DNA from: a virus
Length of the DNA stretch: 64,000 nt
Reading direction: 5' to 3' (one strand)
IMG/VR virus record: IMGVR_UViG_3300048835_000978
Location: 22,346-86,345 of that record
Positions 29,312 to 64,000 of this stretch are shown one piece after another; the stretch's first letter is position 1, and the number at the start of each line of letters is the position of its first letter. Both the position numbers and the translations under genes were made by a program. The notes under the pieces are model-generated. The model was not told the DNA's origin and made no database searches. It saw nothing but the letters and a program-made list of their open reading frames with translations.

Positions 29312-29326
29312 GGGTTGGGCTCCGAA

Positions 29327-29338
29327 CTAGGTTTTGGG
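29327..29338 (-). promoter_or_regulatory. CTAG leader motif before DUF488-like gene
   Basis: Minus strand CCCAAAACCTAGTTCGGAG; CTAG 15 nt from the ATG and directly after the terminator at 29347-29370. Confidence 0.55.
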
Positions 29339-32532: not shown

Positions 32533-32545
32533 CACTAGGGTTTTC
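32533..32545 (-). promoter_or_regulatory. CTAG leader motif before helicase gene
   Basis: Minus strand CTGAAAACCCTAGTGCAAGGA; CTAG 16 nt from the ATG. Confidence 0.6.
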
Positions 32546-38429: not shown

Positions 38430-38440
38430 ACTAAGGTTTA
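38430..38440 (-). promoter_or_regulatory. leader motif variant before 37861-38415 gene
   Basis: Minus strand CATTAAACCTTAGTTCTGGAG; one base differs from the CTAG core, 15 nt from the ATG. Confidence 0.45.
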
Positions 38441-39068: not shown

Positions 39069-39078
39069 ACTAGGGTTT
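39069..39078 (-). promoter_or_regulatory. CTAG leader motif
   Basis: Minus strand TTTCCTTAAACCCTAGTGGAG; CTAG 14 nt from the ATG at 39055. Confidence 0.6.
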
Positions 39079-41977: not shown

Positions 41978-41988
41978 ACTAGGGTTTT
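41978..41988 (-). promoter_or_regulatory. CTAG leader motif
   Basis: Minus strand TTTCCAAAAACCCTAGTGAGG; CTAG 14 nt from the ATG at 41964. Confidence 0.6.
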
Positions 41989-42248: not shown

Positions 42249-42259
42249 ACTAGGGGTTT
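42249..42259 (-). promoter_or_regulatory. CTAG leader motif
   Basis: Minus strand CTGAAACCCCTAGTGGAG; CTAG 13 nt from the ATG at 42236. Confidence 0.55.
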
Positions 42260-43567: not shown

Positions 43568-43578
43568 ACTAGGGTTTC
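43568..43578 (-). promoter_or_regulatory. CTAG leader motif
   Basis: Minus strand TTTCCGAAACCCTAGTTCGAGG; CTAG 15 nt from the ATG at 43553. Confidence 0.6.
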
Positions 43579-44357: not shown

Positions 44358-44390
44358 AAAAGGCCCCGCATGGCTGCGGCCATGCGGGGC
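44358..44390 (-). terminator. intrinsic terminator after GHKL-like gene
   Basis: Eleven-bp stem GCCCCGCATGG/CCATGCGGGGC followed by TTTT. It lies 39 nt after one stop codon and 19 nt before the next start. Confidence 0.85.
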
Positions 44391-45913: not shown

Positions 45914-45925
45914 ACTAGGGTTTTT
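45914..45925 (-). promoter_or_regulatory. CTAG leader motif
   Basis: Minus strand TTTCCTAAAAACCCTAGTGG; CTAG 12 nt from the ATG at 45902 and directly after a terminator. Confidence 0.6.
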
Positions 45926-47281: not shown

Positions 47282-47303
47282 CGGTGCCAATTTTCGGTGC
47301 GGA

Positions 47304-48638: not shown

Positions 48639-48650
48639 AACTAGGGTTTG
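48639..48650 (-). promoter_or_regulatory. CTAG leader motif
   Basis: Minus strand TTTCCTCAAACCCTAGTTC; CTAG 17 nt from the ATG at 48622. Confidence 0.6.
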
Positions 48651-48673: not shown

Positions 48674-49054
48674 TTAATTGAGCCAGAACAAAATGGCATC
48701 GCGAAACTGGCCAGCGGTCTGCTGGCGAATCTCGGCAGACAGATGCGTGCGGCGCCCAATCTCGGCAACGACAGCTTGGACTGTGGTGATCGCTGCGGCC
48801 GTGGTGATCGGATCGAGCGTCAACCATGGCTGGCGAGCGGTGACGGAATACTTGCATCGCGGCCCATAGATCAGGGCCAGATGTTCGATGGCCACCCGGC
48901 GAAGCTCGCGAAGCGACAGCTTGCGATAGTCGACCTGGGCGGGCATCGGCTTGACGGTGCGCTTGAGAGCTTTGACGTAGCGGCCGGCGAGTTTCTTGCG
49001 AATCTCGGCCTGCACGTCGTTGACGGATAGGTGGTTGTGGTTGAGACGTTTCAC
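48674..49054 (-). CDS. hypothetical helical protein, 126 aa
   Basis: GTG start overlapping the previous stop (GTGA). Basic helical N-terminal half (VQAEIRKKLAGRYVKALKRT), then ITTAAAITTVQAVVAEIGRR. No family recognised. Confidence 0.6.
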   Translation of the reverse strand: MKRLNHNHLSVNDVQAEIRKKLAGRYVKALKRTVKPMPAQVDYRKLSLRELRRVAIEHLALIYGPRCKYSVTARQPWLTLDPITTAAAITTVQAVVAEIGRRTHLSAEIRQQTAGQFRDAILFWLN

Positions 49055-49284
49055 TTCGCCAGCTCCATTTTTACTTGCTTGACCGAAGAGGCAGTTCGCA
49101 AATCGTCAAGCAGATTCGATGCGTTAATCCAATCGCCATAGACCACAAACGAGTGGCCCATCCGATCAACCCATCGAACGGCATACGTTGGATTCAGTGC
49201 ATCGCGGTACGGCTTGCATTGACGATCGCCACGGGCCTTGGCAGTGATGCGGCGGCCGGCGCGAATAGTGGTACTTTTCTTCAT
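49051..49284 (-). CDS. small basic protein downstream of the RNA leader, 77 aa
   Basis: MKKSTTIRAGRRITAKARGD start, then a beta-like part (YAVRWVDRMGHSFVVYGDWI). It is the first gene after the long non-coding region and its terminator (49305-49367), so it would be the first one controlled by read-through. GGGAG lies 7 nt upstream. Confidence 0.6.
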   Translation of the reverse strand: MKKSTTIRAGRRITAKARGDRQCKPYRDALNPTYAVRWVDRMGHSFVVYGDWINASNLLDDLRTASSVKQVKMELAK

Positions 49285-49304
49285 TTCGTTCTCCCTTGCT
49301 TAAT

Positions 49305-49367
49305 GAAAAGGATGCGAGGTTGTTCAACCACGCGGCCCGGTGCCAGGTGGGTGAACACTCTCGCATC
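49305..49367 (-). terminator. terminator at end of the non-coding region
   Basis: GATGCGAG/CTCGCATC outer stem with an inner GTTCACC/GGTTGAAC-type stem and CTTTTC tail. Its 5' arm overlaps the hairpin at 49363-49385. Confidence 0.75.
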
Positions 49368-49385
49368 TACTTGGAAGGTAGATGC
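49363..49385 (-). other. candidate antiterminator hairpin
   Basis: GCATCTAC/GTAGATGC, 8 bp perfect with a 7-nt loop. Its 3' arm (GATGC) is also the start of the terminator stem, so the two cannot form together. Confidence 0.5.
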
Positions 49386-50248
49386 GTAGGTGGTCGATTT
49401 GATCTGTGGTGTTGCACTTCGGTCCCGTCGTTTATCCCCTGCTAGTTCTGGCTCTCTTTCCCAGAGAGCATCGGGGAACGTCATTCACGACTGGTGCCGC
49501 ATTCCTACCGCCATGGTTCCCATGGCTAGCAACGCTGGAAGCACTACTCGGCAGCCCGGTGTTTTTAATGCTCGGTGGCATTCATTTATGGATGGGCTCG
49601 GCTTTCGTGCGGACATGGCGACTGGCGCCGTTCAGTCCGTTGCGAAGGATCGATTGATCCGTTTGGGTTTGTGCTATCGGCATCGCAGAGGCGAGAGGGA
49701 GATTCGCCCGGTGCCAAGTGTGCGGCTTGGCGTTGGGCTCTTGCATTCTCGCGGGCGGCTTCGACTGACTCTTTCCCCGTAGGTACTCGTGCGACATGCG
49801 GCTGGTGCGATGCTACAGATTCGACTTTTGTTTGGCGTCACTTCCACGACGCTATTGTCTGGCGATCACTACTCGCCAGCTTTCGCCCTTCGTTTTTGCT
49901 CATCGGCTAGGTCGCGCCGACTGGGGGCTACTCGCAAGTCCCGCCCGTTCTGCTGCTCGTTTCGCTCGCAATCAGTGATTCCAAGATCAGGGTAAGGCGA
50001 TGATTCGCCAGAGACGCAATTCTCAGCTCGGGTTGATGCACATCAGCCCGGCCCCCCTGCTCGGTTTTGATTAACTAAGACGCGCTGGCAATCGCCCAGA
50101 ACGGTGAGACTGACGGGCTGTTCGGGTGAACGTACTGGAAAGACTAGGTAAAGACCAGGAACCCATCGGCCCCATGATCGTTCTGGACTGGGGCAGGTAA
50201 TGGCCATAAGGAAATTTGGCCAAAGGGAAGTTAGATTGTCAAAGAACT

Positions 50249-50283
50249 GACTAAACTATAGTTTAGTCATCGACCAAAAACAA
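50249..50283 (-). promoter_or_regulatory. promoter with overlapping perfect 20-bp palindromic operator
   Basis: Palindrome at 50249-50268, ending on each side with GACTAAAC/GTTTAGTC. It covers a -10 TATAGT (50255-50260); 17 nt away is a -35 TTGTTT (50278-50283). The central TAAACT-AGTTTA half sites match those at 63734-63747. Confidence 0.65.
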
Positions 50284-50401
50284 GCCCTGATTGAATATTT
50301 TAAGTCGTTGCCACATAAGGGTTTATGGCCTGATTTTTGGGCCTGAAAGCGGCTTTTCTGGCCAATTTCGACGCGGCCAGCGTTTTTGTGGTATCTGTAC
50401 A

Positions 50402-51100
50402 CTACCTTTTCTGGTTCGCCTGTCCACTAATCAACCCCTTCAATCTCTCTGCCACCCTGCGCGCCTCGGCGCTCGACGCCCCGCCATGAATCGAAGCCTG
50501 GAGCCAGTGGACCAGTCGCGCGGGATCGCTGATCGTCGCCCATCGCCAGAGTCGCAGGCCGGCGGGAATGACCGATGGCCGCAGTGCGCGGACCCAGCGA
50601 GCCAGAGCATCGGGCTCGGCTGGTGGCCCGGCGCCAGGCAGCTCGAAGCACTCGGCGGCCGGCGGTGCTGGGATCGGATAGTAGGTGAGGCAGGTAACGA
50701 CGGGCGCAAATTTGGTCGGCTGGCGACTGCGATAAAACCGCCGGCCGCCGCACCAGTAGCACGGCACGGTGCCAACTGGGGCTCGCTTGGCGCTAGGATC
50801 CGGCGGAACCGGCAGTGATTCGAACCACTCGTTGAGGTCGTCGACGCGCGGGATCGGTTGCTGCCAACCATCGGGCGTGGCGATCAGCAGCCGACGAACC
50901 ATGGCCTGGGACTTCGGCGGCTGGCAGGCGAGGCAGGCGACGTGGCGGTAGGCGTCCTGCCAGAACTCAAATGCTCCGCAGGTGGGGCATGGTGCTGCCG
51001 CGTCTTCGGGGGCGAGTACGGCGGTGCCAGCGGGTGCGGTCAGTGTTTCGCCGAGCGCCGCACGCTTGGCTCGCATTTTTTCGAGGAGATCGAGGGGCAT
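50402..51100 (-). CDS. zinc-ribbon hypothetical protein, 232 aa
   Basis: PCPTCGAFEFWQDAY with CLAC forms one zinc ribbon, and PCYWCGGRRFYRS starts a second. The C-terminal 70 residues (RPSVIPAGLRLWRWATISD) are helical. It lies between the putative origin and the operator and may be a replication accessory protein. No family recognised. Confidence 0.65.
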   Translation of the reverse strand: MPLDLLEKMRAKRAALGETLTAPAGTAVLAPEDAAAPCPTCGAFEFWQDAYRHVACLACQPPKSQAMVRRLLIATPDGWQQPIPRVDDLNEWFESLPVPPDPSAKRAPVGTVPCYWCGGRRFYRSRQPTKFAPVVTCLTYYPIPAPPAAECFELPGAGPPAEPDALARWVRALRPSVIPAGLRLWRWATISDPARLVHWLQASIHGGASSAEARRVAERLKGLISGQANQKR

Positions 51101-51502: not shown

Positions 51503-53341
51503 TTACTCAGTGTTTTGACTTAAGGCCGTTCCATCACTGTGCGCCGATGTGTTATTACAGTACACCTCAGCACCGATGAATTCATCATCTAGGTAAGGTA
51601 GGCTGACTGATATGCAATAGGAAACCTGCCCGCCAACTCGCCGCCGTGCCGTGGTTGCGCTGGGAAGCCGTTTAAGGATCTGGTCGATGCTCTTGGCTCC
51701 CCAGGCCGTATTCTTCAGTTGGTGGTCTGTGACGGCCTTGTACGCAAGAATTAGGGCCGCTTTGCCGTCGACCTTGATGCCTGATTTCGCCAGGGCTTGC
51801 TCTGCCTCGTCTCGATCGGCCGAATACTCCCCCTTGCGAACGGTTTCGATAAGCTGGGATACTGAGTAAGCTTTGCGGCCGGTGTGAATATGGGATGATA
51901 GGATAGCCCGCATAAGCTCTTTTTCGTCCTCGGATTCAGTCGCCTCGGATTCGACCTGGATGTCACGCACCATTTCCATGAGAACTTGCCTGGCGTCGTC
52001 CGTATCGGCGTGCTGGACGGCTGCCAGCATGGAAGCAGGCACGGCGTAGCTCTCGATCGCCCGGTCACTAACGCCGGCCACGCGGACGTTCTTTAGCTGG
52101 GCGGCAATTCGCTTCGCCTGATGGATGTAGCGGATCGACACGGCCAGCATGCGGTGGCCAAAGTCATGCAGCTCATCCTGTGACGGCAGAACCAGCTTCC
52201 GCTCTTTCGGCCGGATCAGCTCCAGCATGATGAAGCGGTTGCGATCGGGCTCGCGACGCAAGTGCAGCTCCACGGCCGCCACCCAGACGATGTGATTCAG
52301 GCTGAATTCCTCGCCCTTCTGGTTGGCGGTGCCACGCAGCGTTTTGGCCCCGCGGCCGGACGTGCGGAGCATGTTCAGGATCTCTTCGCGATTGCGGCCA
52401 GCAGTGAGCCCATCGGCTTCGAACTCATCGCACAGGATGATCCGGTTGCTCGTTTTAATCACCTGCCGAATGCCGGCCGCCGAGCTTTGGGAGCTGTTGA
52501 TGACGAGCTTGCCGTAGATGCCAGAGAGGAAACTGAATAGCGTCGTCTTGCCGGTGTTCGACGCACCAGTCAAAGCGACCTGCGGGCGCCAGGCCCATAA
52601 CGACTGGACCCAGGTGGCCATTACGAGCCCCGCCATGACGAATGGGCTGGAAACCTGATGCCGCCATGTCCACATGTCGAAATAGCTCTGTGCCCGGTAC
52701 ATCGTCTCGATGGCGAAATCTTTGTCGCACCGGGCCAGGTAGCCAGCAAGCCGTTCGAAGTCATACCAGGGCTCGGCCGTGAGCCCCAGATTTAAGATCT
52801 GGCCACGGCATCGCGGCTGATCGACGCGCTCCAGCTCCTGGGAGCCATTGAACTCAGCCGCCTCGCCGGCGCTTACGAGCACGACTGAGTTATGCTCGCG
52901 GCCTGTCTCGTCGATGCCGGCACAGCAACCCACTCCCGGCCGCGTGTAGCGGTCCAGGCGGCGCTCGTAAGAGCTGACCATGGCGATTGCCGACTTCACG
53001 TCGTTGACATCGACCAGCCCCGGTATGTCCTCCGTCTTGCGGCGGACGAGGCGGTCGCGAGCGGGCTCGCCGGCAATCATCAACAGCCGGTCGTAGCTGA
53101 TTTTGTCGATGTCGCGTACTTCGTCCTCGCGGCGTCGGTGCCGCGACCAGAGCACGACCCCGGAGTCGCCTACCTGTCCAAGCACGTCAATTTGCAGCAT
53201 GTCGAGTATCTGCTTCTCTCGCGCGATCCCATCAGCCGACAGTGATTGCTCGGCTGTCGGCTGCGATGGGTCGGCGACTGGTGTTGGCGCGTAAGCCTCT
53301 GCTGCTTCGGCGAGTGCCAGCAAATCCTGATAGGTCCGCAT
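51503..53341 (-). CDS. replicative P-loop helicase (SF3/DUF927-like)
   Basis: 612 residues. The P-loop GASNTGKTTLF and Walker B RIILCDEFEAD lie in the middle, flanked by PFVMAGLVMATWVQSLWAWR and SLNHIVWVAAVELHLRREPD. The order and spacing fit phage superfamily 3 or DUF927-type helicases that work with a separate primase, here at 53616-54662. The C-terminal 200 residues may bind D-loop or origin DNA. ATG at 53341; a longer frame start has no ribosome site. Confidence 0.75.
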   Translation of the reverse strand: MRTYQDLLALAEAAEAYAPTPVADPSQPTAEQSLSADGIAREKQILDMLQIDVLGQVGDSGVVLWSRHRRREDEVRDIDKISYDRLLMIAGEPARDRLVRRKTEDIPGLVDVNDVKSAIAMVSSYERRLDRYTRPGVGCCAGIDETGREHNSVVLVSAGEAAEFNGSQELERVDQPRCRGQILNLGLTAEPWYDFERLAGYLARCDKDFAIETMYRAQSYFDMWTWRHQVSSPFVMAGLVMATWVQSLWAWRPQVALTGASNTGKTTLFSFLSGIYGKLVINSSQSSAAGIRQVIKTSNRIILCDEFEADGLTAGRNREEILNMLRTSGRGAKTLRGTANQKGEEFSLNHIVWVAAVELHLRREPDRNRFIMLELIRPKERKLVLPSQDELHDFGHRMLAVSIRYIHQAKRIAAQLKNVRVAGVSDRAIESYAVPASMLAAVQHADTDDARQVLMEMVRDIQVESEATESEDEKELMRAILSSHIHTGRKAYSVSQLIETVRKGEYSADRDEAEQALAKSGIKVDGKAALILAYKAVTDHQLKNTAWGAKSIDQILKRLPSATTARRRVGGQVSYCISVSLPYLDDEFIGAEVYCNNTSAHSDGTALSQNTE

Positions 53342-53378
53342 CCTTGTTCCTTCAAGAAAACCTTGATGTGCTGGCGGG

Positions 53379-53579
53379 CTAAGAGCGACGCAGGGGCTTT
53401 TTGTTCTCCGCATGCAGAACGGTAACGGGATGATTGAATTGCACGCCTTCGAGCTTCGACCGCTCGGTCGGGTCGACGCAGCGCTTGAGCAGCCGCTTCT
53501 TTTTCCACCTTTTGCGGATCGCTTCGGCTCGCTCCAGCAACTCTTCTGGTGTGAAGCATCCTTGTGGTACTCCGTTCAT
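53379..53579 (-). CDS. small basic protein, 66 aa
   Basis: FTPEELLERAEAIRKRWKKK, then RSKLEGVQFNHPV: a basic helical protein lying between primase and helicase. ATG at 53579 with GAGGAG 7 nt upstream; variant leader motif precedes it. It may be a loader or adaptor, by position only. Confidence 0.6.
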   Translation of the reverse strand: MNGVPQGCFTPEELLERAEAIRKRWKKKRLLKRCVDPTERSKLEGVQFNHPVTVLHAENKKPLRRS

Positions 53580-53615: not shown

Positions 53616-54662
53616 TCAGACGCCGTTAAAGAAGTCCCGAACATCCTTTCCTTTGCTCTTGGTGACTTCATAAGGCAGGGTCACGTTTCGCAACTCGGCG
53701 GCCACGCCATGCAGCGCGTACAGCCATTTCTTGGCCCCGGTCACACCGGCCTCGTCGGTGTCGTGAGCCACGAATACTTTGCGGCCGGCGAAGAAGCCGG
53801 CAACATGGGGCGGGATGTCGCCTGTCTCGCTGGATGCGTTACAGGTGACAAGGTGAGCGTCGCGCTGCTCGGCGGGAATCTTGCCGAACAGCGCGAGCAT
53901 GTCGGTGGGGCCGGCTGTTTTCCAGATCAGCTCGATGCGCGGGTCATTGAGCATCATCTGTGACAGCGCATGCGTGCCCATCATGGCTCCGAATGTCGGA
54001 CCTACGGACAGCATTTTCGGCTGCTTGGCAGGACGATCGGGACCGGCGGGAATATCGAAGTGCGTGCCAGAGATATTCCAGATGACCCAGGCGACCGGAT
54101 CGGCGTCGAGTAATTGATGCCCAAAGGCCGGCAGCGCGACGACCTTGTAGCGGCCGATGTGCCGCTCTTTGGTTTTCCTGTCGCGGTAGCACGGCCAGCG
54201 AGCGACGCGACCGCCGTTGAGCTTGACCGCTTCCAGCGTGATGCCCGGCTTGTGCTTCTTGCACCACATTTCAGCCAGGACATCGTTACCAGAGTCCCAT
54301 TGCTCGAACTCCAGCGCTTCGCGCGGGTCTTGAGGGCGCCGGCCGCGGCCGATTTCTACGCCGGCTTTTTCTGCGAAGTGCTTGCGGGCATCGACCCAAT
54401 TGGACCACTGCCCGTTGCCGTAGCGGACGGCGAAGTCCCACAGAGACAGCGACTCGCCATTGCCTTTATCCCCATAGCGGCCCGTTTGCACGCTCACCCA
54501 GGCCGAGGCGGTCGATTCTTCGCGGCCCCTGGCGTAGCAGGCTGCGTAGCCATTGTCGCGCACGCGGCCGTCAAACTTGACGCCGAGTGCTTCGTATTCA
54601 ACTATGATGTCGAGGCGCGACAGAATCTCATTGTTAATGTCCTCGAACTTTTTGCCGGACAT
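53616..54662 (-). CDS. TOPRIM DNA primase
   Basis: 348 residues. The TOPRIM domain includes WKTAGPTDMLAL and KVFVAHDTDEAG, the latter with the DxD metal motif. In the first motif the usual catalytic Glu of (V/I)EGPTD is replaced by Ala, which is odd for an active primase. The N-terminal 100 residues are the domain that is also inserted in ThyX. It makes RNA primers for replication or has a regulatory role if inactive. Works with the helicase at 51503-53341. Confidence 0.75.
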   Translation of the reverse strand: MSGKKFEDINNEILSRLDIIVEYEALGVKFDGRVRDNGYAACYARGREESTASAWVSVQTGRYGDKGNGESLSLWDFAVRYGNGQWSNWVDARKHFAEKAGVEIGRGRRPQDPREALEFEQWDSGNDVLAEMWCKKHKPGITLEAVKLNGGRVARWPCYRDRKTKERHIGRYKVVALPAFGHQLLDADPVAWVIWNISGTHFDIPAGPDRPAKQPKMLSVGPTFGAMMGTHALSQMMLNDPRIELIWKTAGPTDMLALFGKIPAEQRDAHLVTCNASSETGDIPPHVAGFFAGRKVFVAHDTDEAGVTGAKKWLYALHGVAAELRNVTLPYEVTKSKGKDVRDFFNGV

Positions 54663-63484: not shown

Positions 63485-63729
63485 CCATGCACCTTGAATC
63501 CAAAACGCGACTTGCTCAAGAAAGTCGCGCAAAAGCTACCAACCGAGAGAGTGCCAACAAGGCAGCCGCCACCTTGGCGGTTCAAACCCTAGAAAACCGC
63601 TGCGGGTGGTTCCCTGGGGCCGGTAGCTTGATTAACAACTGACGCTGCACAGTGCGCCAGGTCGCCCGGAGAGCGGGCCTGAAGCACTAGGTTTTAGGGG
63701 TGCCGCTTAATGTCCGGCTGACAACCAAG
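63485..63729 (-). other. leader region with CTAG motif copies, no convincing gene
   Basis: Lies between the promoter at 63730-63758 and the HNH start codon. It holds a minus-strand AAACCTAGTG at about 63686-63695 and, in the opposite direction, AAACCCTAG at 63583-63591, plus small GC hairpins (GCCCGCTCTCCGGGC). I see no gene with a ribosome site here. Confidence 0.5.
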
Positions 63730-63758
63730 ACTCTAAACTAAAGTTTATTTCGTGTCAA
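63730..63758 (-). promoter_or_regulatory. sigma70-like promoter with repressor operator
   Basis: -35 TTGACA (63753-63758), 17-nt spacer, -10 TAGAGT (63730-63735). The palindrome TAAACTAAAGTTTA at 63734-63747 overlaps spacer and -10, so repressor binding would block it. The -35 overlaps the repressor stop codon. Confidence 0.7.
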
Positions 63759-64000
63759 GCGGTTCGCCTTGGATTTTTTTGACACGGAGAAAGTAGCTCG
63801 TCAATTTTGACAGCAAGCGCTTCGGCCACTCTAGCAAGGAACGCGGCCGAAGGTAACTTAATCCCGCGAACCATGAGCGAAATCCTCATTTCGCTCTCAC
63901 CAATCTTGCGAGCCAAGTCTGATTGGTTCATGCCGCGCAACAGCAGCAATCGCCGAACATTTTCGGCGATATACATTTTTGCTTCTTCGTCCGTGAGCAC
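63755..64000 (-). CDS. XRE-family repressor, possibly cut by window edge
   Basis: 81 residues. MNQSDLARKIGESEMRISLM followed by VRGIKLPSAAFLARVAEALA is a typical XRE/lambda-Cro helix-turn-helix. The frame starts with GTG at the last bases of the window; more could lie upstream. Its place directly before an operator-bearing early promoter makes it the likely phage repressor or Cro-like regulator. The C-terminus lacks any peptidase domain, so induction by RecA self-cleavage is not expected. Confidence 0.7.
   Translation of the reverse strand: MLTDEEAKMYIAENVRRLLLLRGMNQSDLARKIGESEMRISLMVRGIKLPSAAFLARVAEALAVKIDELLSPCQKNPRRTA

Follow-up and report, generated by a model that had tools for sequence, protein, structure and literature searches.

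A terminator-like stem-loop (HP2) lying just ahead of a minus-strand gene in an uncultured phage is best read, albeit tentatively, as a probably leaky intrinsic-type terminator, which ends an untranslated leader of ~1 kb and competes in part with an overlapping hairpin (HP1) for the pairing of its base. Both structures lie in a 64-kb window (the whole stretch of DNA that we analyzed), itself a section of an 86.3-kb IMG/VR virus record. Nearly all genes of this phage window are carried by the minus strand, among them relatives of portal, head-maturation protease, RecD-like helicase and primase genes. The first gene downstream of HP2 (49051-49284, minus strand) encodes a 77-aa protein with no family match and is followed by genes for a 126-aa protein and an AAA-type ATPase. 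Its start codon at 49284 is preceded by a Shine-Dalgarno-like sequence, AAGGGAGA, positioned by eye at 49290-49297 (minus strand).

HP1, on the minus strand at 49362-49386, consists of nine perfect base pairs (CGCAUCUAC-CUUCCAA-GUAGAUGCG) with a folding energy of -13.1 kcal/mol (z = -7.7 relative to shuffled sequences). HP2, on the same strand at 49311-49367, is a 57-nt stem-loop with small internal loops and an energy of -34.3 kcal/mol (z = -6.0). The inverted repeats that the first-pass annotation had placed at 49311-49367 and 49363-49385 are thus both present on the minus strand, the second corresponding to HP1 and recovered by the repeat search within 49353-49395. The GATGC segment that they were said to share is a real overlap, which in fact extends to six bases, GAUGCG (49362-49367, minus strand), common to both structures as judged from the sequence and the alternative folds. 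These six bases can pair either with CGCAUC at 49381-49386, which forms HP1, or with CGCAUC at 49311-49316, which forms HP2, the two partners being identical hexamers. On the 3' side of HP2 is a short U-rich tail, CUUUUCAU (49303-49310, minus strand), characterized by its sequence, its d-score and a comparison of tails, and the distance from the end of HP2 to the start codon is 26 nt. As a separate observation, TGGCACCGGGC is found within HP2 (49335-49349) and recurs in the leader (49706-49720) and near 47288, ahead of gene 47233 (minus strand).

Computed folds of the two hairpins have nearly equal energies. The best fold with the complete HP1 reaches -34.4 kcal/mol and the best with the complete HP2 base -34.3 kcal/mol, while the minimum free energy structure (-34.5 kcal/mol) combines eight HP1 pairs with HP2 minus its lowest five pairs. 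This exchange is almost energy-neutral because both strands in competition read CGCAUC. The complete HP1 is compatible with the upper stem of HP2 (the -34.4 kcal/mol fold), and the contested part of HP2 is restricted to the basal 5-8 bp, which adjoin the short U-tract. The claim that only one of the two hairpins can form therefore fails, since HP1 and the HP2 upper stem coexist; the comparison of free energies proposed alongside it does bear out a competition between near-equal folds, confined to the HP2 base. The balance between HP1 and HP2 depends on the folding model, and calculation cannot fix it: formation of the HP1 base varies from ~4% to 61% with temperature or with the treatment of dangling ends, and the HP2 base pairs are 74-79% formed in the 60-nt context that was applied to all terminators.

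We favor a terminator-like reading of HP2 because strong intergenic stem-loops in this phage are U-tailed and mostly lie just before a start codon. Minus-strand stem-loops of at least 22 kcal/mol were picked by energy alone, regardless of T content, and divided, using our own uncurated gene boundaries, into 13 intergenic ones and 36 within genes. Their 8-base tails contain 4.5 T in the intergenic group vs 1.5 in the group within genes (Mann-Whitney, p = 1.5e-5), and the majority of the 13 are found shortly ahead of a start codon. The stem-loop at 44363, ahead of another start codon, has the tail CTTTTCATT, which is the same as that of HP2. This phage-wide U-tailed set, HP2 included, supports a terminator-like function as the best reading. 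Taken singly, HP2 makes a weak case for a terminator, since its U-tract is poor: the tail has 5 T of 8 with just four consecutive U, and the d-score (a standard terminator score, in our own implementation) is slightly negative at -5.8, whereas several other stem-loops of the phage score far above zero.

HP2 stands out from the other terminator-like stem-loops by the hairpin that precedes it. An upstream perfect stem overlaps its 5' arm over 9 bp, while such stems reach at most 5 bp in the other 11 of the 12 stem-loops compared, the comparison being weak for 47289-47259, where the stem boundaries are off and pairing probabilities unusable. When the upstream 100 nt are shuffled, a perfect stem of at least 9 bp over the 5' base of HP2 appears in ~0.3% of cases. 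This corresponds to a chance of a few percent for one such overlap among 12 sites, which makes the special status of HP1 suggestive, not proven. It also leaves some room for a rather unlikely alternative, namely that HP2 is an ordinary gene-boundary terminator with which HP1 overlaps incidentally, without regulatory effect. Such a view fits with the presence of about a dozen similar U-tailed stem-loops ahead of genes, and with a base of HP2 that is mostly formed despite HP1 in one folding context, but it sits poorly with nine perfect base pairs positioned exactly over the HP2 base. We consider it very unlikely that HP2 is instead an RNA-processing or 5'-stabilizing stem (e.g., an RNase III-type site) that separates the leader from the operon mRNA. 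With its 57 nt and internal loops, HP2 exceeds a typical terminator in length and is less regular, and its U-tract is weak. These features would suit such a role, as would its end 26 nt ahead of the start codon, a position like that of other gene-start stem-loops here; however, U-rich tails are needed by terminators, not by processing stems, and the set has U-rich tails.

Upstream of the 77-aa gene, a 1117-bp stretch (49285-50401, minus strand) displays no coding signal, its ORFs on both strands having non-coding scores and zero matches to Pfam or PHROGs families. A 67-aa ORF (49281-49484) that overlaps the next start by ATGA was considered as a hidden gene and rejected, with a score of -0.22 and no ribosome-binding site. 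The gene upstream of the leader (50402-51100, minus strand) is itself a 232-aa ORF with a weak coding score of 0.05 and neither a Shine-Dalgarno nor a family match, and the non-coding stretch would amount to 2.2 kb if it were not a gene. A perfect 22-bp palindrome, TGACTAAACTATAGTTTAGTCA, present in a single copy in the record, is found at 50248-50269 and is a possible operator. As read by eye on the minus strand, the palindrome contains TATAGT, with TTGTTT 17 bp upstream, a combination that would give a leader of ~965 nt if it acted as a promoter; a consensus promoter scan gave no site at the palindrome. The very long leader reported by the first-pass annotation is thus confirmed as a long non-coding stretch, and we infer that the transcript starts near 50249, which would yield a putative leader or non-coding RNA of ~965 nt. 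Elsewhere in the window, 63720-63770 (minus strand) displays TTGACA followed 17 bp later by TAGAGT, with a palindrome-like core, AAACTTTAGTT, in between, which is another possible promoter read by eye.

A reading in which the region from ~50249 to 49303 encodes a large structured non-coding RNA in its own right, with HP1 and HP2 at its 3' end and gene 49284 merely next to it, seems quite unlikely. The ~965 nt without coding signal fold more stably than shuffled sequences (z -3.1 to -4.6) and contain five perfect hairpins with stems of 6 bp or more, where 1.2 would be expected, as would befit such an RNA, but several coding windows of the phage lie equally far below their shuffles, so stable folding was not accepted as a demonstration of RNA structure. 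Known families offer no counterpart either, with zero matches to Rfam covariance models at gathering score and, in a relaxed search up to E 10, only implausible eukaryotic or viral families in the region, with E above 2. No homologue of the region turned up when phages, plasmids and IMG/VR were searched at the DNA level. The leader resembles GOLLD and ROOL in being phage-encoded, several hundred nucleotides long and rich in hairpins, and differs from them in having neither a covariance-model match nor relatives that would establish a conserved fold. In phages, GOLLD and ROOL are often close to tRNA islands (PMC12286853); the 64-kb window contains no tRNA genes.

Relatives of the phage were found through some of its proteins. 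IMG/VR protein searches with the 77-aa protein, the primase and the ATPase were empty, while RecD and primase alignments led to phages at 30-39% identity, three of which retain that gene order, and a single short contig, part of a Pirellulales MAG, also came up in the search for relatives. The leader was not found in the RecD/primase-related phages, searches of six related-phage records detected neither the downstream ATPase nor gene 44430, and two contigs whose portal protein is identical do not contain the HP1/HP2 region. Among the related phages, L017, L018 and L020 carry within a single ORF of about 910-930 aa the counterparts of what are two separate genes here (53616-54662 and 51503-53413, minus strand).

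In front of some eleven genes, each of them on the minus strand, lies a motif resembling TTTCCnnAAACCCTAGT, with a Shine-Dalgarno after it. This motif, followed at a variable distance by GGAG, occurs just before start codons at 48640-48649, 45914-45923, 43568-43577, 42249-42258, 41978-41987, 39069-39078, 38430-38439, 32534-32543 and 29326-29335 (minus strand), and its core is present in 11 copies in the window at no more than one mismatch, vs 0.9 expected. The HP2 tail is similar to the start of the motif without containing its core, and the center of the 50248-50269 palindrome, AAACTATAGTTT, is similar to the core. Other viral contigs did not show the motif in repeated copies, and its 34 single scattered matches in other phages, nearly all away from start codons, are probably due to chance. 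Sequestration of the Shine-Dalgarno by the pyrimidine tract of the motif was also rejected, as tracts swapped between genes pair equally well.

Attenuators and riboswitch expression platforms comprise a terminator and a mutually exclusive antiterminator. HP1 and HP2 are reminiscent of these systems in that HP1 overlaps the 5' side of HP2 where an untranslated leader ends. However, the overlap is limited here to six bases at the base of the stem, the upper stem of HP2 is present in both states and the two structures do not exclude each other. Moreover, the U-tract is weak and the locus revealed no sensor or ligand domain, no leader peptide and no conserved antiterminator. What survives of the antiterminator/terminator attenuator initially proposed ahead of the 49284 operon is therefore its attenuator-like geometry, together with the U-tailed set and the sole 9-bp overlap among 12. 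HP2 also resembles the leaky intercistronic intrinsic terminators of phages, as a U-tailed stem-loop just before a Shine-Dalgarno, of a kind found at many gene boundaries of this phage; from such terminators it differs by the 1.1-kb non-coding stretch and the overlapping perfect hairpin upstream.

If HP2 is a leaky terminator, exchange between HP1 and HP2 might tune read-through into gene 49284. Transcription would likely start near the 50248-50269 palindrome and produce an untranslated transcript of roughly 1 kb, on which HP1 would be the first of the two to fold as the RNA emerges, occupying the six bases without which the HP2 base cannot close up to the U-tract. The upper stem of HP2 would form regardless, and its base would then be disputed via strand exchange of the identical CGCAUC hexamers. 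Where HP2 wins, the closed stem would abut the U-tract and termination would be favored; where HP1 wins, a gap of about five unpaired bases would lie between stem and U-tract, and the polymerase would read through. Termination itself, the promoter and a regulated shift of the balance are what we infer from this arrangement. A bolder version, which we regard as a long shot, is that the ~965-nt stretch is a new phage structured RNA with a palindromic operator and a bistable 3' terminator that, through its energy-neutral strand exchange, sets how much transcription reaches the 49284 operon. If HP2 is merely a leaky terminator, the locus is ordinary. If the tuning is real, this phage would adjust an intrinsic terminator through degenerate strand exchange at the foot of the stem, without full mutual exclusion, and a function could be assigned to the longest non-coding stretch of this genome region.
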